Shown piece by piece: positions 3,401-25,836 of a stretch of DNA of 29,243 nucleotides. Source of the DNA: a virus; IMG/VR virus record IMGVR_UViG_3300029263_000540, positions 1 through 29,243 of that record. One strand, given 5' to 3'. Below the pieces are notes generated by a model. The model made no database searches. It was not told the DNA's origin and was given only the letters and a program-made list of their open reading frames with translations. Position 1 is the stretch's first letter; each line of letters begins with the position of its first letter. Made by a program: the position numbers and the translations under genes.

Positions 3401-4320
3401 CCGTTTTTAAAAATTTTATGAGTTTCTTTTATTTCGTTATCTTTAACGTACCTAGATATATTGTACGGTATTTGTACTTGGTTGGTTGCTGATAAATTTA
3501 CACCAGTTAAGTCCACATTTGTATCTATTGGATTTTCTACCGTATAGACATTACTACTTAGTAATTCTAAAGTTTCTGGTTCACAATTTTGTGGTGTTAA
3601 TTGTTTTTTATAGTCATACATTATCTCCCTATTAGTTAAATCTTTAGGTTTTAAAGTTAGATATGTAGTTTTTAATTTTATATTTTTAGGTTGTGTGGTA
3701 ATTTGTTTTACAGGGTTAATTGTTATTATATCACCTTTTATTATACCAGTTTTATCTAACTCAACCTTAAACCCTAATGAATGAACATATTGTTCACATT
3801 TTTCCACAAAAATATCCATGTCAAAAGAAAGGCTATTTATTGTGTTTTTTCTAAGTTTAATTCCGGGTATAATCATTTGGATTGCGTGAGATTTACCCCC
3901 AATAATTTTACCAAACGGTTTTATACTACCTTCTGTTGGGTTGGTGCTAAAGTAGTTTGTGTGACTTAGAAAGGCTCCTACTTGTGCACCAATAATTTTT
4001 TCAAACCCTAAATTACCTTTTGAGTTTCTAAAAATTTCTAGTATTAGTGGGGTTTTAGATGTTGTAACAAAATTATTATAGTTATTAAATTTTAGTAGTT
4101 TTTCATCAAAATATAGAAATGTTCTTTGTATACCATCCTCTAACTTAGCAATAACATCTACAGGATACATAGTGTTGTAAGTAAAATTAAACGAGCTTCT
4201 TTTACTTATTAATTCTTGTTGCTTTACTCTATTACTAACATTACCCGAAATAAAGAAATTAAACTTTATTTCTTCACCTAAAACTCTTAAATCTATTTTT
4301 GACCTATATATTTTTTCCAT
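493..4320 (-). CDS. Large tail-associated protein with His-rich motif and C-terminal Cys modules (1275 aa)
   Basis: Not a family I can name. The N-terminal ~350 residues are mixed alpha/beta without obvious motifs. Residues 443-467 hold a histidine cluster: H448-x-H450-P followed by H461 and H466-D467. The spacing H-x-H-x7-G-x2-H resembles the metal site of JAB/JAMM proteins (H-x-H-x7-S-x2-D) with Ser replaced by Gly and Asp by His. The middle (about 500-1000) is beta-rich and Thr/Ser/Asn-rich, as in tail fibres. A cysteine-containing part (about 1020-1130) is followed by a Gly/Pro linker near 1160-1185. Next come a small Cys module near 1187-1215, with the same C..C..Y-x-T..C-x3-C layout as in the 2608-aa protein upstream, and a final four-Cys segment (CSEGQYWCESMGRC..C). 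It starts 11 bases after the 1148-aa gene. Role inferred as a tail tip or fibre component; an enzymatic role is only possible. Confidence 0.7.
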   Translation of the reverse strand: MEKIYRSKIDLRVLGEEIKFNFFISGNVSNRVKQQELISKRSSFNFTYNTMYPVDVIAKLEDGIQRTFLYFDEKLLKFNNYNNFVTTSKTPLILEIFRNSKGNLGFEKIIGAQVGAFLSHTNYFSTNPTEGSIKPFGKIIGGKSHAIQMIIPGIKLRKNTINSLSFDMDIFVEKCEQYVHSLGFKVELDKTGIIKGDIITINPVKQITTQPKNIKLKTTYLTLKPKDLTNREIMYDYKKQLTPQNCEPETLELLSSNVYTVENPIDTNVDLTGVNLSATNQVQIPYNISRYVKDNEIKETHKIFKNGKYIYPLNWVDEMQNNEVFVGADKCYSLKFATKTQLQSFTEKLKSQQIGSVETYQTTNSDGRPEIKPRTYSRLSQWVERSGLNSFNDVRFSYDAYGSINTIIICPNKECIVGPEKIGSEKGLYTVGNEYTLPSSENYVGYYHVHPEKGAMVGAEHTDKTHDILTPLYTIAPISANSVNDFCFSTYGKKDDSEVYTGFTHIKGTAHQDNKTYDLQLSAASFSAETIIPISNVETQTKMGLIDDATLQYRPYTFSEAYGSNNGTLIFNEYDADNYLTYSAITSGVYRFTYKAYLNIQYTDTQWCQYLETAYPSGFTQTYPNNDYEIKRLINTSIIQAGMGEKETVAIDTNFVFNAGEKYRNCYSGNEKYVCSNTPANTGIVNFNFKASIIKGSSTGGTGTTLTEFKVLRSRESDGLANDYLTLNVDNNDLTTSGMNSCVLSSMTSSTIFHKQIPVTLDTGFINLISGQTIQLRYETDWTSTSKGGFYNFGYETPGGDTAIRINLGHKLDMSGHTLEAPYYRGVKASTGVVDKKLFFDSTKKSLPFELKTGGATKTVRLDGTLYLSDSECGNIKTPYVDKSNFNTLTFLDSTAPDSKLVWDVTTQVPTNKWQGMVESNVIKDYVLSTKSNYSMTSMKNNGVFCFYLPTYNSDEYGGKCDFNFPQLTQSYVIHNKFKNYYGNVLEHFIVITPDCGFHKPCSGSKPKTTYDIIHKTTPADWKVVNLNRKLNIKGKEVNVVSAFSQYTAKPETNESKTKCGYYCSCGQELSSALKLDPVYGITNIFKNLQIDGCDECLEKAQEYCFSLNKKCEAKLVGDCANDNIYIQQVINNLQPSITPYTSTLYVTTTGDGSKPKSQTGGGGIQPMGGGGEPGGPQIPTEAQIRYSCNDGLCFQDLNGTYTTFEECVAQCTVVILPPTDSPIDKSTKGGKTEYTPKEGVSPSVPDRGLCSEGQYWCESMGRCINDKEPCKGIK

Positions 4321-8695: not shown

Positions 8696-8917
8696 TTAAG
8701 GTTGTTTATTTATTTTATAAAACCCGTAACCATGTAACTCTAACTCACCCATATTTGGGGTTTGTCCTAGTCTTTGGGGTTTTTCAAAGACAGTTATTTT
8801 TCCTCTTTCTATAAATATGTTGGACCTGGTTTCTGGTCTTTCACAAACATTCATCAAAACCTCCTCTTTTGTTAAAGGAGGAATACAACCATTTCTAAAA
8901 ATTTTTTTAAATCCCAT
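8696..8917 (-). CDS. Small protein of unknown function in the tail cluster (73 aa)
   Basis: No family recognised. The ATG at 8915-8917 follows the 33-base gap that separates this gene from the nucleotidyltransferase-like gene and carries the shared TATTTAT motif. Sequence features: a basic N-terminus (MGFKKIFRNG), two cysteines (C11, C25), a middle segment 'ERGKITVFEKPQRLGQ' and a Gly/Tyr-rich end 'MGELELHGYGFYKINKQP'. An internal ATG (residue 22, MNVCERPE) is preceded by GAGGAGG with a 5-base spacer, a near-perfect Shine-Dalgarno that the other genes here lack. A shorter 52-aa product from that start is possible. Tight coupling to the 302-aa gene (2-base gap) supports it as a real gene. Confidence 0.6.
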   Translation of the reverse strand: MGFKKIFRNGCIPPLTKEEVLMNVCERPETRSNIFIERGKITVFEKPQRLGQTPNMGELELHGYGFYKINKQP

Positions 8918-8950: not shown

Positions 8951-9523
8951 TTACACGGATACATTTTGTGTATAATATTTTTCTTTATATTCTGTTATTG
9001 ATATTGGTTTGCCGTACCTAAAACCAAACTTTTTTCTTGCTATATGTTTTTTTAGTGGGAACTCTCTATGTATTTCCCATATGTCTTTAATTAATTCTAC
9101 CTTACCTTTATCACCAAATTTAATAGCTTTAACAGTATGTTTTTTATCTATATTTAGTGATTCACCTGGTTTTAAACCCCATATGTCTTTTTTTCTTTGG
9201 AAACTTAGGTCCATCCAAAAATCACAATCTATTAGAGCTACTTCTACAGATTCTAGTAAAATTTCTTTGATAAGCTCATAGTCCAATTCTTTGTCGTTTT
9301 CTTGTGTTATAACCATATCTATATCCCAGGTAGGCCAAAAAGGTTTAATATCCATTATATGACTTGTAAAAGAGCCTGTAATATAAAATTCTACTTTATC
9401 GTACCAATATTTTTTAGATACTATATCTATCCATTTATTTAACCTTTCTATGGTAGGCATATAAATTTTTTTATCAACTTTTACATAACCTATCTCATAT
9501 TTTTTTTGAATTCCTAGTTCCAT
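8951..9523 (-). CDS. Small nucleotidyltransferase-fold protein (190 aa)
   Basis: Residues 47-70 show the signature of the nucleotidyltransferase superfamily: 'YITGSF' (G50-S51), then after 15 residues D67-I68-D69 in 'WDIDMVI', the pair of metal-binding carboxylates. A third acidic residue is available in 'IDCDFWMDLSF' (D99, D101 or D105). The length fits a minimal stand-alone domain. Members transfer nucleotides to proteins, RNA or small molecules; the substrate here is unknown. The frame stays open back to an ATG at 9688, but the extra 55 codons overlap the end of the 2608-aa gene and read as its out-of-frame shadow (Val/Leu/His-rich, unlike the rest). The ATG at 9521-9523, one base after the upstream stop (TAATATG), is the natural start. 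Its presence in a tail operon is unusual. Confidence 0.72.
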   Translation of the reverse strand: MELGIQKKYEIGYVKVDKKIYMPTIERLNKWIDIVSKKYWYDKVEFYITGSFTSHIMDIKPFWPTWDIDMVITQENDKELDYELIKEILLESVEVALIDCDFWMDLSFQRKKDIWGLKPGESLNIDKKHTVKAIKFGDKGKVELIKDIWEIHREFPLKKHIARKKFGFRYGKPISITEYKEKYYTQNVSV

Positions 9524-9524
9524 A

Positions 9525-12500
9525 TTAATTTTGATGTGGAGCAATTGATGATGAAATTGATGAACTACCTCCACCTCCACATGAAGTATGTTGACTGGTA
9601 ACACCACAAGGTAACCAAGCACTATCATAACCCATGGTGGTACCAAATGTACCGGTAGAAGGGTCACTAGGGTTAGAAATCTGGTCAACCCAACAAGGTG
9701 GGGGCTGCATTTGCTTAGCGGTAGGGTTATAAATATTGGTTGCTATTTTTTTTGATGCTAATCTTGGGACAGCAGGAGGACCTATTGGTTGTTCATTACA
9801 AGCACCATTAAACCCTAAACCATATTGACAACCACAACACCAACAACAATAATCTCCACTACCTGTTGGGTCTACATCATATATGCAGTCACCTAATTGG
9901 AATGGTAGGTAATTATATACTCCTGTTATTGGGTTATGTGGGAAATTAACTGGTGTTGGTATGTCATTAACTAGTGTTTGATTACATTCATCACATTCAG
10001 TACTTATCACTGGTGTACATGGTAAGTTATTAAGATTTACGTTACATGGTGCCCACATTCCACCACCTATATTTACACCTACAATTTGACTTGGGTATCC
10101 TTGATTATCTTTACACGTTGGAGGGGCACTAGCATTTAAAAATAGACTTTGCATTGTGTTGGATATTATTGGTGTCAACACCGATTGCTGTGCTCCTACA
10201 CAACAATAACAACAATCATTATCGGTATCGTCATAAACACAATCATCTATTGCGTATGTCGTATTCAAATCAAACAACCCTAAGTAATTTGCCCCAATAT
10301 TTAAAAATGAACTTAAATTTACGTCACAGTCATCACAACCAGTACTTGGTGGTATACAATTGGTTAGACAATCGGTTAATGAAGTAAACAGTCCAAGTCC
10401 TGTACCTGGGTCATAGCAATTATAATTTATTGGGTCACAATCCCAACTAGCTACAACGTATGGGTCACAACAATTTGTTGGGTCTTGTTCACAAGCTATT
10501 AATGATGAGTGATTACCATTTATATTATCTATTATGCAGGTACATGGAGCGTTACAAATTGGTGTAGAGTTTACCTCCATACAAAACGTTGGGGAATTGG
10601 ATGTACATCCTGGTGATGTACATGGTGTGTTTGAGTCATTACTAATAACAGAGCTTAATACATGTAAAAGAATTAAGTATCCGTCTGGAGAATAAAATTG
10701 GTTACCTGCTGCACCATTTGTTGGGCTGTAGATAGGTTGAGCCCCTCCTGACCATGTTGATGGTGTGACACAAGCTTGTACCCAACCCATAAATGTTAAA
10801 AAATCGTAAGTCCACCCCGCATTTATGTCTGGGTTGTGAAATACTAACCCTGTTTCTACTAAACGATAGATATTAGAACTTGTATTATTTAAATTGGTTT
10901 CTTGGAAACAATCTGGTGATTGTTGTAATCCTGGTTGTGTACCATACGGGTCAACTTGTTGACCCCCTACATAATTTATAAATTCTGTATTATAAGGAGA
11001 GATTGTTAGACCTGGAGGTCCAGAAGTCATCGTATAACCTAAAGCTCTTTGTTTAAGTAAGAAAGTTTGTAAAGCTGTACCAGGGTTGTTAAAAAACCCC
11101 GCGTTTTGGATATTGTTTACTTGGCTAGTACTAAAAATACCAGACAAGTATGTAGCGTCATTAGTAGCATCTAGAGTTAAATGATTTATATAATTATTTA
11201 CTGATACTGGAGATTGGGTACTAATGTAGGTTTGGTAACCTGTCCATGCTGATGTTGTTGTACCACTTTGCTCACATCTGTACATGTCTCCTGTTAGATA
11301 ACAGCATGTTGAGGTGTCTCCGGTACAAGCATTTATATTATTATAACCAACAAGAGCAAGTGGGTCAAAAATACAAGGACATACACCAGTTTGTGTGTTT
11401 GGATTTCCAGTATCACAAACCCAGAAACCTGTTACAGGTGGTACACAACAAGGGATTGCGACTGCAGCTACATTACAAACTGCTAAATCTGTATAAATAC
11501 AGCTAGGCCCACTAGTACAAGGTTCACAGGTACATGGTGTTGCGGTACATATACAATACATACCACCCCATGTTTGACCACCACTACCGCATGTAGGCAT
11601 TAATAGTGCTCTTAATTGTGTGAAGGTCATACCATTATTTGCTGCAAACCCAGCCAGAACTAATTGGTCTATAAATTCTTGTTTGGAATTTATATTGAAT
11701 GGCATATGGGCCGCTCCAAAAACTGGGTCATTAGTACAAGCGTACCAATTAAAATAGGTACTTATGTTTAATTGATTACCGGTTGCTGAGTCAGCACAAA
11801 CATCAACGGTACCTACGTAGGGAGTTAATCCCACATGATAATAGTTGGTAAACAAAGTTGTTGGTGGTACTGAATTTACTGGGTCACATATCCATTCAAT
11901 AGCTGTATATTGACTCATAGCACCACCAGGTATTAAAATTAAATTATTGGACCCACAAGTACCTGGAGATGGTACTGTTGAGCCAACAACACATTCATAC
12001 ATTTGTTGTGTAAACCCTGTAGTTGGACAAGTGGTGTCACATGGTACCCACATTGGGTACCCACCATTTGATTGTCCACCAGGTACTGTATTAGGCATGT
12101 TATTAGCTAATCGATTTGCATATTCGTTATACCATTGTGAGGGGTCCATTGAAGCGTGTATAGTCCAATCGTATTGGTCGTAAACCATAACATAACAACA
12201 ACAAGCTCCACTAATACTACAATGTATTACAGTATCACCCTCACCATAATTATAAAGTGGTCCATAAGGCTCAGCGTTTACAACTCCAGCTGCTGGTATT
12301 GTTACTACAGTACTATTTAGTGACCATGCACCACTAGTATCAATTATAGGGTATACGACACTACCCGCTGTTTGGCAGTCTTGACAAGGACAACATGTTG
12401 TGTTATTTGAACCTGTACCCCCTAATGGGTAAGAGTTAGCTGTACAGTCAGCTAAAGTATTATAAACCGTACAAGCTTGGTAGGGTGGTGTTGCGGTTAA

Positions 12501-15500
12501 AAATGGTATGGTAATAAGAGTACAATGACATGGGTCTGGTTGTACTAAAGGTCCTAAATCAGGTTTACACTCCCCACATAAAAAATTACATTCGTCTTGA
12601 CAGTCTCCCGGATTTGTAAATGGTCCGTGTACACAACCTGCAGGCATTGTACCCACAAAACTTACACACCCTAATGTTTCATCACAACACCATTCAGTGA
12701 CTAATGGACAACAAGGGTAATTTGTTTGTGCGTTTATACAATCCTGTATAGATATAGAACAATTAAAGTTATAAGGGTTTAAATCGCACGTACAACTAAC
12801 TACACTATCACAACAAAATCTACAAGCTTGTTGACAATCACTTTGACTTGCAAATCCTAATGCTGTACCTGTTGAGTATGGGTTGCTTGTCCCTCCTTGA
12901 CCAAAAACTAAACTATCTGACCAAGTTAAAAAAGGTGGTATTGATTGCCATCCTTGTATCACACCTTCTTGGAAACAGTTAGAGGTTGTCGCGGATTGAC
13001 CGGCGTTGGTATCACAAAACCAAAGTCCTGGGGTTGTACAGTCACACATGTTGGTGTTTTGGTAGCAGTCAAAAGCTGAGGAGTGTTCAGGAAACAAACC
13101 TAGTGGGTTATTACCCACAAACTGACAGGTACCTAATGTAGTTGCTATATCACACGCCCATTTACAATTATCCACACAATCAGACAAGTTGTTATAAGCT
13201 GCTATATTGTATAGTGGGTCACCATTGAAGACTTCTATACACCCTAAACCATTTGTACCTGGTATTCCAGGATTTAAAGAACTACACCAATCACTATCAT
13301 CACAATGAAATTTACTTCCAGTTGGTGCACAACAATCTAAATTAACCGGTGGTGGTAATAGTATTGCTTGTTGACATATCCAAAGACTTAAAAATCCGTA
13401 CCAACTGGAGGTATTTGTTGTTATACCATTTATAACATCTTGTAACATAACACAAGCGGTAAAATCATCTGATGTGTCTAATGGTGTCCCGTTTTCATCA
13501 CAATAACAACCTGATTTACAGTGGTCTTGGCAAGTACTAGCTGTATAACAATTTAATGCTGCTTCTTGACCGAGTACAAAATTACACGGTATTGGGTTTA
13601 AAACACATCCATCTATATAATCACAACTATAGGTGTCAGCTGAAGGTGCCGAACATGGGTCACAACCCCCTGTAGTAGCACCACTAGGTGTGCTCCCACA
13701 ACTTATCCACGCGTTTGGTATCCCATTAGGTGCGTCTGGTCCCTCTGGAACAAAGTAGTTACAGTCGTAAAATCCTGATGGTGGTCCTGAATATGGGTTA
13801 CTATATATAGGTAAGTCACAATAATAACAACATGTACTAGGTGTACCACCTGGGTAGGATACATAGTCGTATAAAGTATAGTCCCCACTTAGGTTAGTCC
13901 ATCCTTCTTGGTCGTTACCTTGACCACCCGTAAGTGGGTCACAAGCACAATCACAAGTTATTTCATCTGACACACATCCCGTTGGGTTATCTGCTGTACA
14001 CTGTGCCATCGTGAAATATACTGGTCCTGTTGGACTTGGTGTGTTAGCACCAATACTAGCAATAAAAGTGCAAGGCCAAAAAGGCCATGATGGGTCGTAT
14101 TGACCAGACAGTGGGTTAAATATTGGTGCAGATTCGTCACATTCTACATCACAACAACCTGTTGAGAGACAACAAGCTGAAAAAGAGTCATAGGGACCTC
14201 CAGGTGACCAAGTATAACTACTAGGTAATGCAACTGGGTTTGGCCAATTAATACAATGACCGTAACTTGAGCCATCATTCATATTTTCTAAACAATCAAA
14301 ACCACCATCTGTTGGGCAATTATCGTCACATAGTTGTGCGGTAGCATAACTTCCGTTTGGATATGGTTGGTCGACGAAATTAGGGTTGGCTCCAAAACCA
14401 CTTAACGGTACTAAAGCTGGGTCAACGTTCCAATCAGATTCCCATGCTGGTAGTGGTGTTGGACACGGAGCTAACATTTGACATGGTGTGGCTGCTCCAC
14501 TTAAACACACCCAACATTCTGTTAGGGCTGGTTGACACCAATTACAACAATCACCAGAAGTTGTGTACTGACCACAAGCATTAGTAAAACAGGGTATACA
14601 AGCTGAACTACCTGGGAACCCGGTCCCACCACTACATGGTTGGCTCCATGGGTCATAACAATCCCACCCACAAGGTCCTGATATACCACTATTATTTCCG
14701 GGTGCTGTTTGACAGGATAGTTCGTCTGGGAAACTACCACCTACAATCTCAACACATCCTTGGTCACAAAAATATTCCCAAGCTGCAAAATTACAACAAG
14801 CTGATATTCCTTGTAAAGATACACCAAGTTCACAATCAGTTAGGTCGTAATATGGGTCTAAAAATAATTGGTTGGAATTTGCTGTTAGTTGTGGTGTGGT
14901 TAAAACATAATTTGTCATTATATCGTAATAGTCTGATGGTGCAACTGTAAAACATGAAACTTCTGAACAACATGGTGTTGATGTTGGAGTTGTACAGGAC
15001 CAGGCTATAGGGTTACACCATTCTTCACAGTCTGTCATTGATGAAAATGTAACAGCGAAAGGGTATGTTGATACCGTATATGCTGAGTGAGTATAGTCTA
15101 TTTGTGTACACCCTGGCATGTCACAACCATACTGGTTACTACAATGCCATCTATCATCTACTGGACAATTCCCATCATTATATGCTGTTAAACAACCACC
15201 TGGTCCAGCATAAAAAGTAAAACTATCTTGTGTACTACCAGAAATCATTTCACAAATATATGGGCCGGGACTTGATAAATCTGGTGGACAAACCCAACTT
15301 ACACAACCAACATAATCCCACATAGTAGAATTTGTCATTGCTGTTGGTACCACACCAGTTGGTATACTGGTTATTGCTTGGTAACAATTACCGTCTGGTC
15401 CATATATAAATTGTCCTTGTGTAAATACTTGTGTACCATTCCATTCTCCCGCTATACCAACTGGCCCCATTGGTGAATAAGCGTTAAATATATTATATGG

Positions 15501-17351
15501 GTCAGCACAAGGTAAAGCACTTCCTGGTGGGCATGAAACACAATCAGGTGTACACCCTTCAAAAACATGTACATCGGTTCCTGTTGGGTTTAGCCAAACT
15601 CCTTGGTACAGTTGTGATGGCATAATACCAGCCCATGGGTCATTCAAACCACTATTACTTGTCTGTGTTATGCCTTGTTCCGCAACAACTACATAACAAC
15701 AACAATCTTGTGGTGATACATCATAAACTATATCACCTTGTATATAATCAACGAAAGGTGACCAGTTAGGGGGGTTAGCCGGTGATAATGTGGTTATCGG
15801 ATATGGTTGTAGGTTAACTCTATCAATATACTCATCTTTTGTTAAACAAAACTCACAGGTTTCCTCTGGACACTCAAAACAATCTTCACCACCAAAAGCT
15901 AATGAATTTAATCCACAACTAGTAGCAACAAAAATTGTAATTCCATTTGGGAAGTCGTAAAAATCTATAGGTGTTTGTCCGTTTGCTGAAGAAATTGTAT
16001 AACCAGTGTATACTGCATCAGCGTTAAATATTGAACCCACCATACCAGCTGTAATAGTGTTCGTTATAGGGTCAATAACATCACCACCAACAGGTAGTGA
16101 AACAAATTTTTCAAACCCATTAGGTAAAAATCCTGGAGCTGTTGTAGATGGTAAGTTACTATAGGTTGAGAAAATACCTATCGAACTATCCGTTATCCCA
16201 GTTAATTCAAAACAACCTATGGATGTACCACTGTACTGGTTTATGTTGGTTCCAGAATCAAGTGGGTAATAATTTGGTGAACCTACAGCACCATAAGTAC
16301 CATGATAAGCTGTGGAGGTAAATAATGGTGCTAAGTAAACTGAAGGTAGTGGGTTGGGCCCACTTAAATTTACTTGGTATGGGTTACCCCCTGGTGTACT
16401 AGGTGATAGTGTTCCACCCATTCCACTACCTGTAGGTGGAATTGTAGAATAAGGTTGAGCTAATATTTGGTTGTATGTTAAATTAGGTACTGTTACTGTT
16501 TGACTTACAGATGTAGGTCCCCATGGACCTTTATGTGTTATCTTAATACTATATTGTGATGGTGTAACGTACTCATGTACACTGGTAAGTGATGGATATT
16601 GTAAATCTTCACAGCAAGGAAAACCAAGACCGTTAGTTGGTACTGAGCAATCACACTCACCCCAATTTATGGTATATGGTGATTTTTGGAATTCCTTGTA
16701 TTGACCAAAATTTGTGGTATTATATATTTGCATTAACATACCATTACCTGTCGTATTAGCTGTAAAAACAAAATTAGAAAATATTTGTTGTTGGTCTATC
16801 CTTCCGTCCCAAACACTGTAGTGTCCAATATCATTATAATCTTGTGTTAGTGTTAATGGTATATTATACAATATACTATCTAGTGGGTCCAAACAATTAC
16901 ATATAGCGATACTTTCATCCCAAAAAGCGTTTACACCTTGTGATGACAATGTTTGGTTTATGTTGGTGTTCGTTACATCGTATATAGTAATTAATTCATT
17001 ATAACTATTTTGGTAGTAGGTACCTCCTGATGTTAAAATAAGACCTTTAAATAAAACGTAATTGTACCCATCTGGGTTAGTACAATTATTAGGGTTAGTA
17101 CTCAGTGGTGCGTCCCACAACACAACACATGGGTTGGATATTGAACAATCTTTTAATTCGTCTGGGAAACTGGACATCACCCCACTTTCTAAAGCATTAA
17201 CAACTTCAGACCCAGTAGAATTATACATCGTCACTCCAGAACAATTAGTACTTAGATTTATTGGGTAGAAATTTGTCCCTCCGGTACAAGGTAAAGTCCA
17301 AGTACTTGCTGATGATGCGGTTCTTCTTATGGTAAACTTTTGTATATCCAT
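9525..17351 (-). CDS. Giant cysteine-rich repeat protein of the tail cluster (2608 aa)
   Basis: By hand count it has about 195 cysteines (roughly 7.5%), and Lys/Arg are scarce. Two repeat types interleave. Type A is [WYF]-x-C-[D/x]...C...[YF]-x-[ST/N]-x3-C-x2-3-C; about ten copies are visible, e.g. starting WHCSNQYGC, YFCDQGC, YSCDYIDGC, FHCDDSDWC, WACDIATT, WFCDTNAG, WCCDETLGC, WVCDTGNP, WDCDPINYNC. Type B is a CBM5/12-like pattern, W...Y..GD.[VI]YD...CCC(Y/W).., usually closing in W-x-PC; six copies lie near residues 530-610, 630-690, 1150-1240, 1690-1790, 2350-2450 and 2470-2590. Cys-poor spacers lie near 260-470 and 2040-2200. No signal peptide or membrane helix is visible. It starts 3 bases after the 287-aa gene. 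I infer a virion surface or host-binding protein whose modules are held by disulfides or metal; function is unproven. The unbroken frame argues for strong selection. Confidence 0.75.
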   Translation of the reverse strand: MDIQKFTIRRTASSASTWTLPCTGGTNFYPINLSTNCSGVTMYNSTGSEVVNALESGVMSSFPDELKDCSISNPCVVLWDAPLSTNPNNCTNPDGYNYVLFKGLILTSGGTYYQNSYNELITIYDVTNTNINQTLSSQGVNAFWDESIAICNCLDPLDSILYNIPLTLTQDYNDIGHYSVWDGRIDQQQIFSNFVFTANTTGNGMLMQIYNTTNFGQYKEFQKSPYTINWGECDCSVPTNGLGFPCCEDLQYPSLTSVHEYVTPSQYSIKITHKGPWGPTSVSQTVTVPNLTYNQILAQPYSTIPPTGSGMGGTLSPSTPGGNPYQVNLSGPNPLPSVYLAPLFTSTAYHGTYGAVGSPNYYPLDSGTNINQYSGTSIGCFELTGITDSSIGIFSTYSNLPSTTAPGFLPNGFEKFVSLPVGGDVIDPITNTITAGMVGSIFNADAVYTGYTISSANGQTPIDFYDFPNGITIFVATSCGLNSLAFGGEDCFECPEETCEFCLTKDEYIDRVNLQPYPITTLSPANPPNWSPFVDYIQGDIVYDVSPQDCCCYVVVAEQGITQTSNSGLNDPWAGIMPSQLYQGVWLNPTGTDVHVFEGCTPDCVSCPPGSALPCADPYNIFNAYSPMGPVGIAGEWNGTQVFTQGQFIYGPDGNCYQAITSIPTGVVPTAMTNSTMWDYVGCVSWVCPPDLSSPGPYICEMISGSTQDSFTFYAGPGGCLTAYNDGNCPVDDRWHCSNQYGCDMPGCTQIDYTHSAYTVSTYPFAVTFSSMTDCEEWCNPIAWSCTTPTSTPCCSEVSCFTVAPSDYYDIMTNYVLTTPQLTANSNQLFLDPYYDLTDCELGVSLQGISACCNFAAWEYFCDQGCVEIVGGSFPDELSCQTAPGNNSGISGPCGWDCYDPWSQPCSGGTGFPGSSACIPCFTNACGQYTTSGDCCNWCQPALTECWVCLSGAATPCQMLAPCPTPLPAWESDWNVDPALVPLSGFGANPNFVDQPYPNGSYATAQLCDDNCPTDGGFDCLENMNDGSSYGHCINWPNPVALPSSYTWSPGGPYDSFSACCLSTGCCDVECDESAPIFNPLSGQYDPSWPFWPCTFIASIGANTPSPTGPVYFTMAQCTADNPTGCVSDEITCDCACDPLTGGQGNDQEGWTNLSGDYTLYDYVSYPGGTPSTCCYYCDLPIYSNPYSGPPSGFYDCNYFVPEGPDAPNGIPNAWISCGSTPSGATTGGCDPCSAPSADTYSCDYIDGCVLNPIPCNFVLGQEAALNCYTASTCQDHCKSGCYCDENGTPLDTSDDFTACVMLQDVINGITTNTSSWYGFLSLWICQQAILLPPPVNLDCCAPTGSKFHCDDSDWCSSLNPGIPGTNGLGCIEVFNGDPLYNIAAYNNLSDCVDNCKWACDIATTLGTCQFVGNNPLGLFPEHSSAFDCYQNTNMCDCTTPGLWFCDTNAGQSATTSNCFQEGVIQGWQSIPPFLTWSDSLVFGQGGTSNPYSTGTALGFASQSDCQQACRFCCDSVVSCTCDLNPYNFNCSISIQDCINAQTNYPCCPLVTEWCCDETLGCVSFVGTMPAGCVHGPFTNPGDCQDECNFLCGECKPDLGPLVQPDPCHCTLITIPFLTATPPYQACTVYNTLADCTANSYPLGGTGSNNTTCCPCQDCQTAGSVVYPIIDTSGAWSLNSTVVTIPAAGVVNAEPYGPLYNYGEGDTVIHCSISGACCCYVMVYDQYDWTIHASMDPSQWYNEYANRLANNMPNTVPGGQSNGGYPMWVPCDTTCPTTGFTQQMYECVVGSTVPSPGTCGSNNLILIPGGAMSQYTAIEWICDPVNSVPPTTLFTNYYHVGLTPYVGTVDVCADSATGNQLNISTYFNWYACTNDPVFGAAHMPFNINSKQEFIDQLVLAGFAANNGMTFTQLRALLMPTCGSGGQTWGGMYCICTATPCTCEPCTSGPSCIYTDLAVCNVAAVAIPCCVPPVTGFWVCDTGNPNTQTGVCPCIFDPLALVGYNNINACTGDTSTCCYLTGDMYRCEQSGTTTSAWTGYQTYISTQSPVSVNNYINHLTLDATNDATYLSGIFSTSQVNNIQNAGFFNNPGTALQTFLLKQRALGYTMTSGPPGLTISPYNTEFINYVGGQQVDPYGTQPGLQQSPDCFQETNLNNTSSNIYRLVETGLVFHNPDINAGWTYDFLTFMGWVQACVTPSTWSGGAQPIYSPTNGAAGNQFYSPDGYLILLHVLSSVISNDSNTPCTSPGCTSNSPTFCMEVNSTPICNAPCTCIIDNINGNHSSLIACEQDPTNCCDPYVVASWDCDPINYNCYDPGTGLGLFTSLTDCLTNCIPPSTGCDDCDVNLSSFLNIGANYLGLFDLNTTYAIDDCVYDDTDNDCCYCCVGAQQSVLTPIISNTMQSLFLNASAPPTCKDNQGYPSQIVGVNIGGGMWAPCNVNLNNLPCTPVISTECDECNQTLVNDIPTPVNFPHNPITGVYNYLPFQLGDCIYDVDPTGSGDYCCWCCGCQYGLGFNGACNEQPIGPPAVPRLASKKIATNIYNPTAKQMQPPPCWVDQISNPSDPSTGTFGTTMGYDSAWLPCGVTSQHTSCGGGGSSSISSSIAPHQN

Positions 17352-18218: not shown

Positions 18219-19998
18219 CGACAAATTCTGAAACTACATTTATACTACTAGAGCTATAACCAAACATAATAGGGTCTATTTTAAATTCTAAATTTAAATA
18301 TGGGTAGTGGGCATCATTTAAATAAGGATAATTAACACCATTATCACCGTCTTCAAAATAATCTAAAGGTAGGATAGGTCTCCACCTAAATGTTCCTTCT
18401 GATAAAGAATAAGTTGCGTATGGTGGTGTTGTAAATAGACTATCTTCATAACTTACAGTGGTTGATAATTTACGTATGGGTATTCGATGATGTGGTTGGT
18501 ACCTAAATATAGACTTTATAAAGCTAGTTGAGGTTCCTGGATATTCATACATAGCATGCTTATTAAATTTTAAAGAGTGACTAATTTCTGAAATAACCCT
18601 TTCTTTTAATTCAAATGGGTTATATTCTACAAACGCACCTCTATAGGTTGTTCCACTCAATGGTAATGGGTTTACCCCGTTTGGACTATTTTGAAATAAG
18701 TTACTTGGGTTGGTGTCATTATCAACAAATGGGTCTATAATACCATTTTTTCTGAAGTTCCAATCCCAACCATATCCTGTTGGTGAGTTAGCTGGTGTTT
18801 CATAGTGCCACATAAGATTTCTATTAACTTGAAAAATTGTTAGGTATATATCTGTTAGTGGTCTATTTAGGTTGTCTTGGAATTTATCCACATCTATATC
18901 TAAATTTGTATTCCATAGAAAGGATTTAAAGTCTTGTGTTATTACTGTTTTATCACCGTAACCATCTGGTGTTTTTTTAGATTTATACACCCTACCTTTT
19001 TTATTGTATATACCATCTTCAAACCCTGTCCTATCTAAACTATAGTCTGATGAATTAGTAATTAATTTATGTATGTGTGTACAGTATTGTGACCTGGTTT
19101 CACTAATATTATTTAAACTAATTATTCTTTGTAACACACAGATTGAATCTGGTGGTACTTCAGTTAAGTCAACACCTTTTGTATATATGTTAATGACGTA
19201 CTTTTCTGAGTTTGCGTATTCATTACCTAAAAAATCAACTTTAAATGTTTTTTGAGTTGTGGGTCCTAGTGGAGCATTGATTGTTATATTATATATCACA
19301 CTAGTAAGTCCTATTGGACTAATTGTTGGAGAGTTCTGTAGTTCTATGAATTCCCCAGCGTTTACCCCGTGTGGTGATGCGGTGGTTATCCTTAAAGTTT
19401 GTTTACCTTCAATAGTAATTAGTTGAATACGAGCTGGTATACCATCACCACTATTAAAACGTACACCAGACTCATCAAACATAAACTCCATAGTCTGTCC
19501 TGAATCACAATCAGAAACATAAGAAATGTACGTAACCCAATTATCTTGATAGGCGTCTATACTACTGTAGGGTAAGTCCCATGTATTTGTTGCTCCACCA
19601 TAACGATAGGGGGGCATAAAAGTAAATAAATCAGATGGTGGTAAACCTACACAGGGTGGTCCACTAAAAGGACTCACTACCGGTAGGATAGATATGGGGT
19701 CTGGACAACCAATATACGGTGGGGTAAAGTACATGTAATTTATTATATTTGGTTCATCTGTCTGACCTGTTATAATATTATTATATAAAACATCTATTTT
19801 ACCATATGGTCTATATGTTGTTGAGTAGTCTCTTTCAAAATCAAATTGGTCTCTTAAATTTAAAACTAAATTTCTATCACCTTCTATCATAGCTCGTTGT
19901 TCACTACTTAAAAAAGGTTGTAAGCTTAGGTCTTTATTCTGAGACCCAGCAAATTTAGATTCTCCTCTTACAATTCTTATATTTTTTTTATTACTCAT
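18205..19998 (-). CDS. Tail-cluster structural protein with an SPHG-type beta domain (597 aa)
   Basis: Residues about 201-275 contain 'TASPHGVNAGEFIELQNSP' followed by beta strands. This resembles the 'SPHGL-x-x-GD-x-V' segment found in many phage tail and baseplate proteins. The N-terminal 70 residues share a layout with the next gene's product (K-x-[VL]-[ST]-L..., then D-Y-x-T-T-x-Y). The C-terminal part is Tyr/Pro/Asn-rich and aromatic ('YPYLNDAHYPYLNLEFKIDP'). The start ATG overlaps the stop of the 1136-aa gene as TAATG, and the end overlaps the following gene, so these genes form a coupled translation series. The length is close to T4 gp10 (602 aa), but I see no sequence resemblance and do not assign it. 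Confidence 0.66.
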   Translation of the reverse strand: MSNKKNIRIVRGESKFAGSQNKDLSLQPFLSSEQRAMIEGDRNLVLNLRDQFDFERDYSTTYRPYGKIDVLYNNIITGQTDEPNIINYMYFTPPYIGCPDPISILPVVSPFSGPPCVGLPPSDLFTFMPPYRYGGATNTWDLPYSSIDAYQDNWVTYISYVSDCDSGQTMEFMFDESGVRFNSGDGIPARIQLITIEGKQTLRITTASPHGVNAGEFIELQNSPTISPIGLTSVIYNITINAPLGPTTQKTFKVDFLGNEYANSEKYVINIYTKGVDLTEVPPDSICVLQRIISLNNISETRSQYCTHIHKLITNSSDYSLDRTGFEDGIYNKKGRVYKSKKTPDGYGDKTVITQDFKSFLWNTNLDIDVDKFQDNLNRPLTDIYLTIFQVNRNLMWHYETPANSPTGYGWDWNFRKNGIIDPFVDNDTNPSNLFQNSPNGVNPLPLSGTTYRGAFVEYNPFELKERVISEISHSLKFNKHAMYEYPGTSTSFIKSIFRYQPHHRIPIRKLSTTVSYEDSLFTTPPYATYSLSEGTFRWRPILPLDYFEDGDNGVNYPYLNDAHYPYLNLEFKIDPIMFGYSSSSINVVSEFVDVCE

Positions 19999-22900
19999 TA
20001 TATAACTGTATCTGATAATTCTTCATCAACATATAACCTGATAAATTTATTGTAAGAGGTTTCTCCTGGTCTCAAACCAAAATAGTAGAATAGTGGTTGT
20101 GAGAATAACATTGATGGTCCTGTTAGATTTGTTATTGGTGGATATGAGTCTCCTGGTGTGCCTGGTAAACCAAAACCGTTTAGGTTACCTACCGTGTTTT
20201 GGTAGTCTCCTGAATTAATAATTGTTGAGCCGGTTGAGTTTGTCCAACTATTTGGAGCTGTTTTGTAATTACCTGTTGTGTATTGCCAATCATTATTTTC
20301 ATTACCAAAACCACTAGAACCGTTTATTCTCCAAATGTAAAAAGGGATTATTTGTGAACTACCGGACAATTCGTAAGAAACACAATCTATTAAGTCAGCA
20401 CCTGTCATAATAGTGGGTGTGCTAGCTGTAAATAAATGAGGTCTCCATTGTATATCATACCCAGCATTAACATTTATAGCGAAATCAACATAACTACCAG
20501 TTTCATTTATATTGTTAGGTTCTGGATACTCCAATAAATTCGGGTCTGTCAAAGATGTTGGTGCACCACCTGGTACAGTACAATCACATGATGTGTCCGA
20601 CATATTTGTTTCATAACCAAACACACCTAACATAGAGTTTTGCATCAATGCTTGACCCATATCACCACCTATTTCTTTTTCGGGTCTTGCAAATATACCA
20701 CCTAAAGACATATTAGGTTGTGACGCTTTAAGGTTGTAAGCGTCCGAAACTAGGTCTGTTATGTCTTGGAATGTAGTACTACCTATTTGGTCTGTGACTG
20801 AACAGTCCTCTGCAAATTTTTCATCCAAACATATTTGTTGTATACATTGGTTCCTAGAACCCATATCTACCATTGTAGTTGGGAATAGTATGTGTCTCTC
20901 CATATCACCTGTCCAGTGTGAGTTACCATAAAACCAGTTTGTGGTTTGATTACCACCCGCTACCCCATCATCATCAGCGATAAATTTACCTGTAGTTGCT
21001 GTGTTATATCTAAATGGTGTACACCTATAGTAAAAAGTATGGTCAGATGGGTGTAGGTAGACTACTTTTTTACAATACCTAGTACCTGATGTGTCATAAG
21101 TATCGTTAGCCGCATCATAAGATAATTTAGCTTTGAATTGAAATTGGTATAGAAATCCGTTTACCCAAGCATTTTCCCAAAAATAATTCATTATACCATC
21201 ACATAAAGCTGAAAATATTTTTTCTCTTCTGTACCACTCCCTAACTAGTACATCATTTGTGTTAAATTCCAAACAGGCAGCATTTAAACACATACATTTT
21301 ACATAACATCCACCTCCGGCTGCCATGTCATTACCTGCGGCTGTAGAATTACCTAATATGTCAGGTGGTGGATTACTTGTAGTTGAGTCGTACCCAAAAC
21401 TATCCGCACAGCAAACAACATCTCTTTCAATACCAAAAATATTAGTGGATGAGTCACAGTCATCATCATTCCAACTATAATTATCTTTAGCATTTTGCAT
21501 GTCTATGTTGGGGTTGGTCCTACACATACAACTTTCACATTCTGGGTATTTTTTTTGTCTTAGGGTAAATAAGACAAACCCCATCGGTATTCCAAATGTT
21601 AAACATGCAGGTTGGCACTGATTAGTCCACGATAATTGGCCACACATAGTAGGTGTGGGTGCAAAACTTAGTAGACTAGCAAGCCAACCCCAAGCATTTA
21701 TTAAAGTATAAACTAAACAAATAGCAGCAAAAATTATAAGGAATGGAATAAGTATTAAACCAAGTATAGAAGCAATAAGACCAAACACTACGGATAACAT
21801 TCTATAAATAATGTAAGTAAATAATAGGATAAACTGATTTAAAATTATTATACCCTTAAGTCTTTTTACAGCACTATTAACTGGGAAGAACATTGCTGAG
21901 GTTGAGCATTGTTGGTCTGCTTCTGGTAATATTTCTTTAATACCCAAAAATTGTCTTCTACCCCAATGCTTAACGTGGTCATGAAATTGTGAATAGGTAT
22001 AAACCCTATTAAAAGACATATCATAAAATAAATCAGTTGCTGGTGGAATAAGATTTGTTTGAGCCCATGGGTGGTAGTCACTATATTCTAAAGAAAATGT
22101 GTAAGGGTCATAGTACTTACTATTCCCTTCACCATCCATCAAAGTTTCACCAATTTCAGGCCAATCACCATTTAAATCAGTTTTAGTACCAAATTCTCTA
22201 ATTTGTGGTACTAAGTGTGAACCTCTCCTTCTTTGTCTTGCAGTACCTGAGGATTGTTCGGGTCTTACTCTAAATCTACATCTAGTCCTTGTAGCTACAC
22301 CTTTTGTTGGGTCGTTAGATTTTACTAAATTACCAAATTCATCAGTAATCATGTGGTCTAGATTCATTGGTACATGAACTAAGAAAGACCCCGTTTCATC
22401 TATTACTCTACCACCATCGTCAAAATAAAATCTTTCCATTACTGGTACTTGTCCACCTCCCATAGCAGAACCATCATAAGGATATGGTGGGAAAGCTGTT
22501 GGGTCGTCTTTAAAGAATGGTGTGTACCTAATACAGTCTATCATACCGGGTTGTGTTACTAAACTACACAATTCACCCATGTGTCTTTTTGGTCTACATC
22601 TTTTGTTTACCGAGTCTTTGTCGGTGTCAGTAGCTGTACTACCCATAAAGACAGCTGTCGGTTGTATTTTAATACCTGAATTACCTAAGTCAAAATCCAC
22701 CCTAGTTATGGACGCGTCGCAAAATTCTTCATCACCCCAAAAAGGTCTTACATCTATAGATTTTTGTTGTCCCACAATTTGTGGTAAATCGTCTAACGCT
22801 GGGTCATTTCTAAACCTGGTACCATCGAATTTTGAGTCTGGGAAACCTAGTTGTTTAAAATCTTCAGGTAACATAGAAAAACAACCTATATCACTCATAT

Positions 22901-23408
22901 CAACATCCATTACTAGAGTTTGGTCACCAACAGGTACCCCATATATCATAAAGTCACCAGACTCATTAGTTTTTACCGTAAATTTGTAGTATTTGTCATA
23001 GACATACTGTATTTCTTGTTTGTCTAAAACATCTTCTATTGTTGGGAACGTCCCAACCGCAACATGGCAGTCAAAGTTTGGTTTGGAACTTAATAGGTTA
23101 AATCTCTTACCGTCATCTGTGGTGTCAAAAGGTTGTGTGTAGGGATATAACAATCTAACCACTTCATTTTCTTGGTCTTCCGCGTCTATAGGTAGGAATA
23201 TTGATACCTTAGCATTCGGTATTCCGTAACCTCCGTTTGAAGTTACTCTACCTACCACAACACCAAAATCAGCACACATTCTTGTGTAAACGTCATTTTG
23301 TGAAAGTGATAAACTTAATATTTCTAATAAGTCAAAGTCTTGGTTTAGATTTAAACTAACTTTCTGGTCTTTACCGACTTGTGTCCTTACTCTAATAGAT
23401 TTAGCCAT
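19998..23408 (-). CDS. Large tail-cluster protein with carboxypeptidase-regulatory-like domain and central membrane-type stretch (1136 aa)
   Basis: Residues about 45-172 look like a CarboxypepD-regulatory/Ig-like domain: 'GVVVGRVTSNGGYGIPNAKV' followed by 'YKFTVKTNESGDFMIYGVPV', the usual V.G.V....G.P...V / t.t...G.F.i..vp layout. Residues 519-583 are a long, nearly charge-free hydrophobic run (IIILNQFILLFTYIIY..., then LILIPFLIIFAAICLVYTLI), enough for two or three membrane helices. A Cys-rich region at about 590-720 follows (CESCMC, VVCC, CYVKCMC), then a beta-rich C-terminal part ending at a 'FYYFGLRPGETSYNKF' segment. The gene follows the 102-base gap after the gp6-like gene and ends in a TAATG overlap with the next. 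Membrane helices in a tail-cluster protein suggest a part that enters the host envelope, or a tape-measure-like or accessory role. I cannot name the family. T4 gp7 has similar length but is not similar by eye. Confidence 0.68.
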   Translation of the reverse strand: MAKSIRVRTQVGKDQKVSLNLNQDFDLLEILSLSLSQNDVYTRMCADFGVVVGRVTSNGGYGIPNAKVSIFLPIDAEDQENEVVRLLYPYTQPFDTTDDGKRFNLLSSKPNFDCHVAVGTFPTIEDVLDKQEIQYVYDKYYKFTVKTNESGDFMIYGVPVGDQTLVMDVDMSDIGCFSMLPEDFKQLGFPDSKFDGTRFRNDPALDDLPQIVGQQKSIDVRPFWGDEEFCDASITRVDFDLGNSGIKIQPTAVFMGSTATDTDKDSVNKRCRPKRHMGELCSLVTQPGMIDCIRYTPFFKDDPTAFPPYPYDGSAMGGGQVPVMERFYFDDGGRVIDETGSFLVHVPMNLDHMITDEFGNLVKSNDPTKGVATRTRCRFRVRPEQSSGTARQRRRGSHLVPQIREFGTKTDLNGDWPEIGETLMDGEGNSKYYDPYTFSLEYSDYHPWAQTNLIPPATDLFYDMSFNRVYTYSQFHDHVKHWGRRQFLGIKEILPEADQQCSTSAMFFPVNSAVKRLKGIIILNQFILLFTYIIYRMLSVVFGLIASILGLILIPFLIIFAAICLVYTLINAWGWLASLLSFAPTPTMCGQLSWTNQCQPACLTFGIPMGFVLFTLRQKKYPECESCMCRTNPNIDMQNAKDNYSWNDDDCDSSTNIFGIERDVVCCADSFGYDSTTSNPPPDILGNSTAAGNDMAAGGGCYVKCMCLNAACLEFNTNDVLVREWYRREKIFSALCDGIMNYFWENAWVNGFLYQFQFKAKLSYDAANDTYDTSGTRYCKKVVYLHPSDHTFYYRCTPFRYNTATTGKFIADDDGVAGGNQTTNWFYGNSHWTGDMERHILFPTTMVDMGSRNQCIQQICLDEKFAEDCSVTDQIGSTTFQDITDLVSDAYNLKASQPNMSLGGIFARPEKEIGGDMGQALMQNSMLGVFGYETNMSDTSCDCTVPGGAPTSLTDPNLLEYPEPNNINETGSYVDFAINVNAGYDIQWRPHLFTASTPTIMTGADLIDCVSYELSGSSQIIPFYIWRINGSSGFGNENNDWQYTTGNYKTAPNSWTNSTGSTIINSGDYQNTVGNLNGFGLPGTPGDSYPPITNLTGPSMLFSQPLFYYFGLRPGETSYNKFIRLYVDEELSDTVI

Positions 23409-23510: not shown

Positions 23511-25352
23511 TTAGGAGAATGTAGGTTTAGTATTTCTCTTAGTTCTAACAGCGATGTCTGTTTGTGGTAACATTATTTGTAGTATTTCGTCAGGTTGAGC
23601 GAAAATAGTGTCGTCTATCAACCCTATTTGTTTTGTAGTAGCGTTGATGTATGGTTGTGTACTTATAGATTGTGAATATGGGTCACCTACTTGATTGTAA
23701 ACTCTTACATCCACAATATTAACAACACCTTCTTGATTCATTATTTGTTTTCTTAATTCACCTAAGGATAAATCTTGACCCATTTCTATTTTATCTGTTT
23801 TAAAATAATCACCAACAATTGTAATTACACTGGTCACAACTTCTGATTGATTGACTCCGTTGGCTATTATTAAATCTATTTCTAATCTTAAGTCTATTAC
23901 TTTTGCTGACCCAACCATGATATAATCGTTTATCATTCTGTGGTTAGATAAGTATGTGGATATATTATTTTTTAAGGTAGAACTTACATTAGAAGTTAAA
24001 GTACCACTGGGTGTGTAAGAAAGTACACTTAACTTAATTTTATTTTCTACTTCAGTCGCACTTGCTTTTGCTGGTGAACCAAAAGAGGATGGCATAGTTC
24101 TTAATTGTGATACATAATCATTTATTGTTACCGCTCTTTTTTGTGCGGCAAAATTAAACGAAATATAATTCCTAATCTCATCTTGTGTCATTGGGTCGGC
24201 ACCACCTATTGCTGATGTTACATTATTTATAGCTAAGCTGTTAATAACTGATTGGTTAACTTGTTGACTTGGTCCAGCAACTATAAAGTCTACTATCCCT
24301 ACATTTCTTACAGCTCCAGCACCAATATTGGAAGATTTACCACCGCCTACCCTATATTGGATAAATAAGGTTGTATTTCCTTTTAGGGTATTACCCAAGG
24401 CAATATTATTCATGAATTTAGACATGTCTAATTTTACCCCTTTGGATGCAAACTCATCTAGAAGGTCTTGTGAGGTTTGATTTCCACCACCAAAAGTTAG
24501 GAAGAAAAACCCTTCAGGGGTATATTCACTAACAAATCTTTGTGGTGCGGTAACATACCTACCAACCTTAATACCCACATTATCTGGTGGTGAAGAAGGG
24601 TCTTCTACAAAAACTTCATTTTCTGCTAAAGCGTCAACCTCATACCATTTATCAGCTAATGGTGATATAAATTCTGATGAGTTAGGTAGTGACTGATACC
24701 CAACTCCCGGTTTTTGTATTATAGATGTTACTGATATTATATTTTTTTCTGGTAAAAATAATTTAAAAAATGGTTTGTTATTACTATCTAATATTTCTTT
24801 TTTGAATATTTTGGTTGTTCCGTTTACAATAACTTCTCTCTTAGTAATTGTATAATTAACTAGGTTTCCATTGGCATCAAAGTTAGGTATTTTAGTTCTA
24901 TTAGGTACCCCCTCCATACTATATGGTGATGAAAAATCACAATCATCCACTAATTCAAATATCTGACCACCACCATTAAACTGTGCTCCAGCTCTTAAAA
25001 GACCTAAGTATTTAAAATCTTCTTTATCACCTAGAGCTGGTACCACCACCGATAAATCCCCCACAGTAACAGAAGGTCTATTACCTGGTACTTTTAGACC
25101 GTAAGTTCTAGCTAGATTATATAAAGAACTTCTTTCTTCAGCAAATTGTAGTACTGTTTCTTGAAATGTCCTATCTATTTGAAAATTTAGGTTATCTGCT
25201 ACCGCTGCGTTTAAATCTAAAAACACTGAGTAAATGGAAGCATCGTTTGCATTTTGTATTAAGTCGGGATAATATGTATTAGTTAGTCTTAGTAACTCGT
25301 TTCTTATCCCTAAAAAATCTCTTTCGGTGTACGCTATTTGTTTTTCCGCCAT
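23511..25352 (-). CDS. Baseplate wedge protein, T4 gp6 / baseplate J-like (613 aa)
   Basis: The protein has the layout of the baseplate J/gp6 family. The N-terminal region reads 'YTERDFLGIRNELLRLTNTY' followed by 'ASIYSVFLDLNAAVADNLNFQ', the helical segment with Asp/Asn-rich L..laavaD.L.... that is typical of this family. The middle has 'IGGADPMTQDEIRNYISFNFAAQKR' followed by 'AVTINDYVSQLRTMPSSFG' (the 'a.t..Dy......p.v.ka' motif of J-like proteins), and the C-terminus has 'YFKTDKIEMGQDLSLGELRKQI'. The length is near T4 gp6 (660 aa). In contractile tails gp6 dimers form the inner ring of the baseplate wedge together with gp25 and gp53, and drive sheath contraction. The start is one base after the gp25-like stop, the usual 25-6 pairing. 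This gene and its neighbour are the firmest evidence that the phage is a myovirus. Confidence 0.85.
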   Translation of the reverse strand: MAEKQIAYTERDFLGIRNELLRLTNTYYPDLIQNANDASIYSVFLDLNAAVADNLNFQIDRTFQETVLQFAEERSSLYNLARTYGLKVPGNRPSVTVGDLSVVVPALGDKEDFKYLGLLRAGAQFNGGGQIFELVDDCDFSSPYSMEGVPNRTKIPNFDANGNLVNYTITKREVIVNGTTKIFKKEILDSNNKPFFKLFLPEKNIISVTSIIQKPGVGYQSLPNSSEFISPLADKWYEVDALAENEVFVEDPSSPPDNVGIKVGRYVTAPQRFVSEYTPEGFFFLTFGGGNQTSQDLLDEFASKGVKLDMSKFMNNIALGNTLKGNTTLFIQYRVGGGKSSNIGAGAVRNVGIVDFIVAGPSQQVNQSVINSLAINNVTSAIGGADPMTQDEIRNYISFNFAAQKRAVTINDYVSQLRTMPSSFGSPAKASATEVENKIKLSVLSYTPSGTLTSNVSSTLKNNISTYLSNHRMINDYIMVGSAKVIDLRLEIDLIIANGVNQSEVVTSVITIVGDYFKTDKIEMGQDLSLGELRKQIMNQEGVVNIVDVRVYNQVGDPYSQSISTQPYINATTKQIGLIDDTIFAQPDEILQIMLPQTDIAVRTKRNTKPTFS

Positions 25353-25353
25353 A

Positions 25354-25815
25354 TTATAAATTAATTATTACAAAGTCTTTAGTTTGGAAGATGTTGTCTC
25401 CAGAACTGTAGTCAATCCTTACCCTCATAGAATACTCTTTTTCTGTGGCACCAACAAAAGTAAAACTATTGTCCTCCAAATCAGGAGTATTTATTTCATC
25501 TTTTTCTTCTTGTCTAACATCTTCAGCTGTTTTTACTTCTACTTTAGTAATTACTAAGTTAGGTATGTACATTTCTACAGCTTCTCTTATTTCGGTATCT
25601 ATAGATGTTTTAGTAGCTGAATCCATAGGTTCAAAAATATACCTCATTAAATTTGTTCCAAAGTCTGGTAAAAAATAACGTGTACCTTTTAAAGTTAATA
25701 TTAAATGAATTAAACTAGAACGTACCTCACTGTCTGGTGTTTTATTAAGTCCTAGAAAAAATCCTTCTTGACTATCCGTAAATGGGAATGTTATACCGTA
25801 TCTTTGGTTGGGCAT
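25354..25815 (-). CDS. Baseplate wedge protein, GPW/gp25 family (153 aa)
   Basis: The length and motifs match the GPW/gp25 family of contractile injection systems. Residues 28-42 (DSEVRSSLIHLILTLKG) form the first helix with the conserved E30 and R32. Residues 45-63 read 'TRYFLPDFGTNLMRYIFEP', the family hallmark (R.f.p.fG..l...ifEp). 'EIREAVEMYIPNLVITKVEV' at 75-94 is the second conserved helix and strand. gp25 sits in the wedge core next to gp6 and helps nucleate sheath assembly. An acidic insertion at about 97-115 is somewhat longer than usual. The start follows a 20-base gap with the shared TATTTAT motif; the leader is a run of A's without a Shine-Dalgarno. Confidence 0.9.
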   Translation of the reverse strand: MPNQRYGITFPFTDSQEGFFLGLNKTPDSEVRSSLIHLILTLKGTRYFLPDFGTNLMRYIFEPMDSATKTSIDTEIREAVEMYIPNLVITKVEVKTAEDVRQEEKDEINTPDLEDNSFTFVGATEKEYSMRVRIDYSSGDNIFQTKDFVIINL

Positions 25816-25836
25816 CTTTTTTTATAATAAATACTT
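25816..25836 (-). promoter_or_regulatory. Candidate promoter/regulatory motif, copy 3 (AAGTATTTATTATAAAA)
   Basis: This lies in the 20-base gap between the DUF5522-type gene and the gp25-like gene, the border between metabolism and tail genes. TATTTAT (25827-25833, minus strand) ends 11 bases before the ATG and is followed by TATAAAAAAAG. It shares AAGTATTTAT exactly with copy 2. It may be a late promoter at the module boundary or an A/T-rich translation start signal. Confidence 0.35.

Follow-up and report, generated by a model that had tools for sequence, protein, structure and literature searches.

A cysteine-rich giant protein among the baseplate genes of an uncultured marine myovirus lineage: a likely tail adhesin with CBM5/12-like modules on a split core

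The window analysed here, an IMG/VR fragment considered over its whole length of 29,243 nt, encodes a protein of 2608 aa with 195 cysteines (hereafter, the giant), which belongs to an uncultured marine myovirus lineage and is located among the baseplate genes. We consider it likely that the giant is a virion tail adhesin, anchored by a conserved core and carrying glycan-binding modules that would be stapled by disulfides oxidised after lysis. The coordinates, open frame, length and cysteine number reported in a preliminary description of this DNA proved exact on recount, and the strand is the minus one. The main features are the following:

9525..17351, minus strand: giant cysteine-rich protein, 2608 aa, 195 Cys, net charge -189
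15891..17351, minus strand: N-terminal core of the giant (aa 1-487, 13 Cys), PKD-like
9528..15890, minus strand: cysteine-rich modular region of the giant (aa 488-2608, 182 Cys, 8.6%)
8696..8917, minus strand: 73-aa ORF, other half of the core (HMM positions 303-361, E=2.7e-23)
25354..25815, minus strand: gp25-like baseplate wedge protein (PF04965, E=1.2e-12)
23511..25352, minus strand: baseplate J/gp6-like protein (PF04865, E=1.9e-7)

The frame of the giant opens with ATG and is unbroken, and cysteine represents 7.5% of its residues, the median among 200 ORFs of at least 300 aa from the window and the loci of its relatives being 1.2%; the rest of the window proteins mostly contain 0-3% cysteine, with two small exceptions (79 and 64 aa) at 5-6%. 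Lysine and arginine together account for 31 of the 2608 residues (1.2%, compared with 7-16% in the neighbouring proteins), the longest run free of both spans 544 aa, and a predicted trypsin digest yields two peptides of 7-30 aa, covering 1.3% of the protein. Because of this near absence of Lys and Arg, the giant is expected to be underdetected in trypsin-based proteomics, and virion studies and marine metaproteomics based on trypsin would largely miss it. The search of the whole giant against Pfam, PHROGs, NCBIfam, PDB and cultured phages returned no match, including none to the tail-fibre models in PHROGs and NCBIfam, nor any full-length match to a known fibre; since no family matched, membership of a known phage tail-fibre family was rejected. 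The earlier statement that no named family fits holds for the protein as a whole in Pfam, PHROGs, NCBIfam and PDB, but one of its two kinds of module resembles CBM5/12 and its core resembles PKD domains, in both cases at scores under the Pfam gathering cut-offs.

As regards the core, an HMM built from 24 cysteine-poor forms matches the giant at aa 158-487 through its positions 53-296 (whole-protein E=3.5e-26), with aa 158-315 and 365-487 being homologous to a cysteine-poor protein of about 360 aa in related phages, and its remaining positions match the 73-aa ORF as listed above. It follows that one core protein is divided between the giant, which carries its first half, and the 73-aa ORF, which carries the other; the modular region, of about 2,120 aa, is attached to the end of the first half. 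On sequence grounds, the core resembles a PKD domain at scores below the Pfam gathering cut-off: in the first member scanned, the best match to PKD/PKD_4 reached 21.8 bits compared with a cut-off of 27, and the best PKD E value among five cysteine-poor relatives was 1.1e-4.

The 73-aa domain is encoded in 387 IMG/VR stretches, and the IMG/VR relatives of the giant share its gene order. For the comparison of architectures we kept 80 loci, a number which overstates the independent evidence, since near-identical contigs of a single phage account for several of the relatives. Three arrangements occur. In the first, a giant, 2440-2966 aa long and with 7.4-8.5% Cys in the complete copies, is accompanied by a separate ORF of 73-77 aa; in the second, there are two mid-size cysteine-rich proteins, the second of which carries the 73-aa domain at its end; in the third, a single cysteine-poor protein of 357-396 aa, with up to about 1% Cys, occupies the same locus. 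Module content varies widely among relatives. The two-protein forms (L033, L035, L036, L042, L045 and relatives) display 'GCTDPNAINYDPTAIIDDGSCEY' repeats and dockerin-like stretches, likewise of extracellular type, instead. In the tree of the neighbouring protein of about 302 aa, the giants cluster together (SH-aLRT 100), as do the cysteine-poor forms (97), and two changes are required to account for the two-protein forms; being midpoint rooted, this tree fits either module gain in the giants or module loss in the cysteine-poor group.

The upstream side of the giant hosts, all on the minus strand, genes for a DnaB-like helicase, a ribonucleotide reductase, a DUF5522 protein, the gp25-like protein and the baseplate J protein, and the synteny of the last two with the giant locus is maintained in the relatives whose sequence extends there. 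In a phage collection, the J protein has matches at 26-29% identity in Flavobacterium phage immuto, Microcystis phage Mel-JY01 and an uncultured 484-kb phage, the annotated match being the baseplate wedge of Flavobacterium phage immuto. Moreover, clear Shine-Dalgarno sequences are absent before the start codons, which, together with the Flavobacterium-phage match, suggests that the host of the lineage is probably a member of the Bacteroidota. The window contains no tRNA genes. Searches of the same phage collection with the giant, the core and the 302-aa neighbour retrieved no relative except for short repeats shared with Synechococcus phages, and no relatives of the full family or of the 73-aa domain were found in the GTDB genomes.

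The preliminary description counted about ten copies of one repeated module, of which the analysis recovers two distinct kinds, in roughly six and six to eight copies, respectively. The strict pattern proposed for the repeat matches only three times, and self-BLAST of the giant gave no off-diagonal match, so that no repeats became visible by self-comparison; degenerate copies were instead recognised by profiles derived from the modules of other phages. The longer of the two, module B, follows the pattern G-x-W...Y-x2-G-D-x-V...C-C-Y...W-x2-C and occurs, on the minus strand, at the following positions:

15540..15770, minus strand: module B1, aa 528-604 (profile, PDB and Pfam searches, AF2, Foldseek)
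15303..15449, minus strand: module B2, aa 635-683 (profile, AF2, Foldseek)
13698..13904, minus strand: module B3, aa 1150-1218, degenerate (profile, 7.4 bits)
12039..12272, minus strand: module B4, aa 1694-1771, degenerate (3.0 bits in the window)
10044..10280, minus strand: module B5, aa 2358-2436 (profile, 13.0 bits)
9606..9926, minus strand: candidate module B6, aa 2476-2582 (pattern only, under the profile threshold)

A profile trained on distant phages only gave four matches in the window (14.8, 13.0, 7.4 and 6.4 bits), the highest single score among 200 cysteine-fixed shuffles being 8.9 and the next 6.7; module B4 reaches 11.6-15.1 bits in several orthologues of the giant. When a profile of 14 module B copies was compared with the PDB, the leading matches came from the chitin-binding domains of chitin deacetylases (3wx7 first, E=0.0012, then 8yh4 and DA1) and from that of chitinase A1. 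Furthermore, CBM_5_12 (PF02839) was matched by six of the 14 single modules (best E=6.1e-5) and weakly by four relatives from the giant and two-protein groups (13.6-19.2 bits, compared with a gathering score of 26.2), with no match of PF02839 to the window giant itself. In the AF2 model of B1-B2 (aa 488-692), pLDDT is about 80 over B1, both structure models obtained in this work being moderate (pLDDT 66 and 75). Foldseek matched this prediction, always at E values above 1e-3, to the tail fibres of phage 7-7-1 (2.4e-3) and the baseplate/receptor-binding complex of phage Milano (2.9e-3), and, after these, to chitin-binding domains (2d49: probability 0.96, target TM 0.69, E=0.15), whose small beta-sheet fold the module may share. 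Module B, with about six copies in the giant, resembles CBM5/12, with which it has the W...Y..GD.V....CY.a....W pattern in common in addition to the profile matches; different from CBM5/12, it features extra conserved cysteines (CCY, W-x-x-C) and longer loops, and scores below the Pfam gathering threshold.

The second kind, module A, is short, with four to six cysteines in the arrangement W-x-C...Y-x-[ST]...C-x3-C, and is also found in distant relatives. Its copies in the giant are as follows:

15015..15152, minus strand: module A, aa 734-779, weak (broader profile, 6.8 bits)
13164..13313, minus strand: module A, aa 1347-1396 (21.9 bits; copy in the training set)
13038..13163, minus strand: module A, aa 1397-1438, in tandem with the preceding copy (24.9 bits; in the training set)
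11301..11426, minus strand: module A, aa 1976-2017 (26.5 bits; in the training set)
10467..10583, minus strand: module A, aa 2257-2295 (held-out profile, 6.3 bits)
10356..10448, minus strand: module A, aa 2302-2332 (held-out profile, 12.8 bits)

The broader profile, trained in part on modules of the window, recovers six copies, and the held-out profile gives two matches in the window, with a top shuffle score of 6.1 bits. The fold predicted for module A is strand-strand-helix with the C-x3-C in the last helix, as in Kunitz/BPTI domains, and all four Foldseek matches are to BPTI/Kunitz structures; with these being the only matches, at E values of 3-9, the module is left without an assigned family. 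A Kunitz/BPTI identity was rejected in view of the Foldseek E values of at least 3, the lack of a match to the Pfam Kunitz model and the different cysteine spacing, and an onconase-type identity was likewise set aside, the PDB profile matches having E values of at least 0.16 and being taken as chance.

A recognition role is suggested by the comparison with a relative (L002), where identity is 80-91% up to aa ~1650 of the giant and then falls to 14-54%, whereas the neighbouring baseplate-region proteins remain at 89-96% throughout. The C-terminal third of the giant is therefore hypervariable, and a conserved base with a distal end that varies is typical of receptor recognition. Considering this variability together with the CBM-like modules and the synteny with baseplate genes, the giant most likely functions as a tail adhesin that binds glycans.

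The combination of cysteines with a contractile tail has known parallels. In Agrobacterium phage Milano, the sheath and baseplate of the contractile tail are joined by interchain disulfides, and the structural proteins contain 2.1% Cys on average, their bonds lying both inside a subunit and from one subunit to another (PMC10811340); phage 7-7-1 also has a disulfide-linked contractile tail (PMC12796354). Like these phages, that of the giant would have a contractile tail with cysteine-enriched proteins predicted to form disulfides; the difference is that the giant concentrates 7.5% Cys in repeated small modules of one protein. By tblastn against 50,697 phage records, a collection not confirmed to include Milano, no homology between the giant and Milano or 7-7-1 was detected. 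By analogy with Milano, whose sheath and baseplate are held by such bonds, the giant could be mainly a cross-linked armour or scaffold of the tail, its CBM-like folds being structural rather than ligand binding; the best Foldseek matches of B1-B2, which are phage tail proteins and not chitinases, and the cysteine richness of an adjoining 1136-aa protein of the baseplate cluster (32 Cys) would agree with this. We regard such a role as unlikely, since the C-terminal third diverges much more rapidly than the adjacent proteins, as expected of recognition rather than of a scaffold, and relatives differ widely in module content.

The cysteines themselves are strongly maintained. Between the window and one relative (L018), 122 of 128 aligned cysteines over aa 1-1660 are conserved (95%), compared with 41% of all residues and 50% of the tryptophans, and in a comparison of nine diverged giants 84-92% of the cysteines are identical, the overall identity being 33-38%. 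Among the cysteine differences in moderately diverged pairs, 12 of 21 were local pairs changing in the same direction, compared with 1.9 under the null (0 of 2000 resamplings), in a run that used looser alignment masking and had one pair in common with the run on the closest pairs; in the latter, 2 of 13 differences were paired, which is not significant (410 of 2000), the changes being too few. Paired change favours disulfides over four-ligand metal sites, and disulfides arising on the virion once the cell has lysed, one of the options raised in the preliminary description, are the best supported of them in light of the cysteine conservation, the local paired changes and the disulfide-linked virions published for Milano and 7-7-1. 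Metal binding, also raised there, would imply a tail protein stabilised by zinc or iron-sulfur and already folded in the cytoplasm; the giant has many CC, CxC and CxxC clusters, iron-sulfur is known in lambda gpL-type tail-tip proteins, going by the title of a study cited in PMC10276861, and, because the host cytoplasm is reducing, metal would permit folding before lysis. It is nevertheless a quite improbable explanation, since a four-ligand site would tend to fail with the loss of two ligands, which makes gain and loss in local pairs a poorer fit, histidine is scarce (0.9%) and no metal-binding family was matched. In the contigs of eight relatives, no thiol oxidase (Evr1/Alr) was matched, but the controls were equally blank and the search was uninformative; thioredoxin was found only in the contig of one distant relative.

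A non-virion protein released at lysis, for instance a matrix, decoy or biofilm-modifying factor, would suit the very acidic, Lys/Arg-poor composition and extracellular-type modules, and the virion placement is one that we infer, but this reading is very improbable, and the secreted role raised earlier is not supported, given that no strongly hydrophobic or signal-like segment was seen at the N terminus, that the gene has a fixed place among the baseplate genes and that the short homologue of the cysteine-poor phages sits at the same place.

We think it likely that, as a multivalent glycan adhesin, the giant forms an appendage of the virion in the baseplate region, where the PKD-like core and the 73-aa protein would position it on the tail and the small modules, spanning approximately 2,120 aa and including about six of CBM5/12-like type and several of the short type with four to six cysteines, would project from the core. 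The protein would be synthesised reduced in the host cytoplasm; upon lysis into oxygenated seawater, its cysteines would pair as disulfides, producing a rigid, protease-resistant chain of modules able to grip polysaccharides of the host or of particles, with a specificity set by the hypervariable C-terminal third. A rather improbable extension of this adhesin model is that oxidation acts as a step of virion maturation, the protein being an inactive, flexible, reduced chain inside the cell and turning only upon lysis into a rigid, sticky, protease-proof fibre of many modules, and that the split of the core gene let a single-gene adhesin reach ~2,400-3,000 aa in one phage clade.

CBM-bearing baseplates also have a precedent. 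In the Bacillus cereus phages Vp4 and Deep-Blue, CBMs are present in the baseplate wedge protein of one and absent from the homologue of the other, with cell binding shown (PMC11406892). Similar to what is proposed for the giant, there is a CBM-bearing baseplate protein, and a PKD-like domain occurs in a receptor-binding protein; different from it, the CBMs belong to other families, the hosts are Gram positive and the available part of that report mentions no cysteine-rich repeats (PMC11406892). The parts of the giant thus have precedents, in disulfide-linked contractile tails and in CBM-bearing baseplates, while for their combination, scale and split-core architecture none was found in the literature searched. 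A widespread uncultured phage lineage would in this way possess an adsorption apparatus with large cysteine-rich arrays of predicted glycan-binding modules on a split core gene, and its cysteine-poor, two-protein and giant forms offer a natural series for asking what disulfides are worth to a phage in seawater.

Some further observations concern the proteins surrounding the giant. The 1136-aa protein of the baseplate cluster (19998-23408, minus strand), which has a weak CarboxypepD_reg match, contains 2.7-3.5% Cys in giant-bearing phages compared with 1.2-1.7% in five cysteine-poor relatives. At aa 520-576 it presents a strongly hydrophobic, hairpin-like stretch of about 55 residues, also present in one giant-bearing, one two-protein and two cysteine-poor relatives, which is unusual in a tail protein and possibly serves for membrane insertion at infection. 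Between the giant and the 73-aa gene, an ORF of about 190 aa (8951-9524, minus strand), seen in the window and in some relatives and not in others, resembles, on inspection by eye, a nucleotidyltransferase (GSFTSHIM...WDIDMVI); Pfam gave no confident match. Two small cysteine-rich ORFs, a DUF5522 protein (PF17653, E=1.1e-18) and a zinc-ribbon-like ORF, adjoin the baseplate genes (25836-26256, minus strand). Downstream of the giant, a 1275-aa protein (493-4320, minus strand) carries one short module A near its C terminus, at aa 1186-1212.
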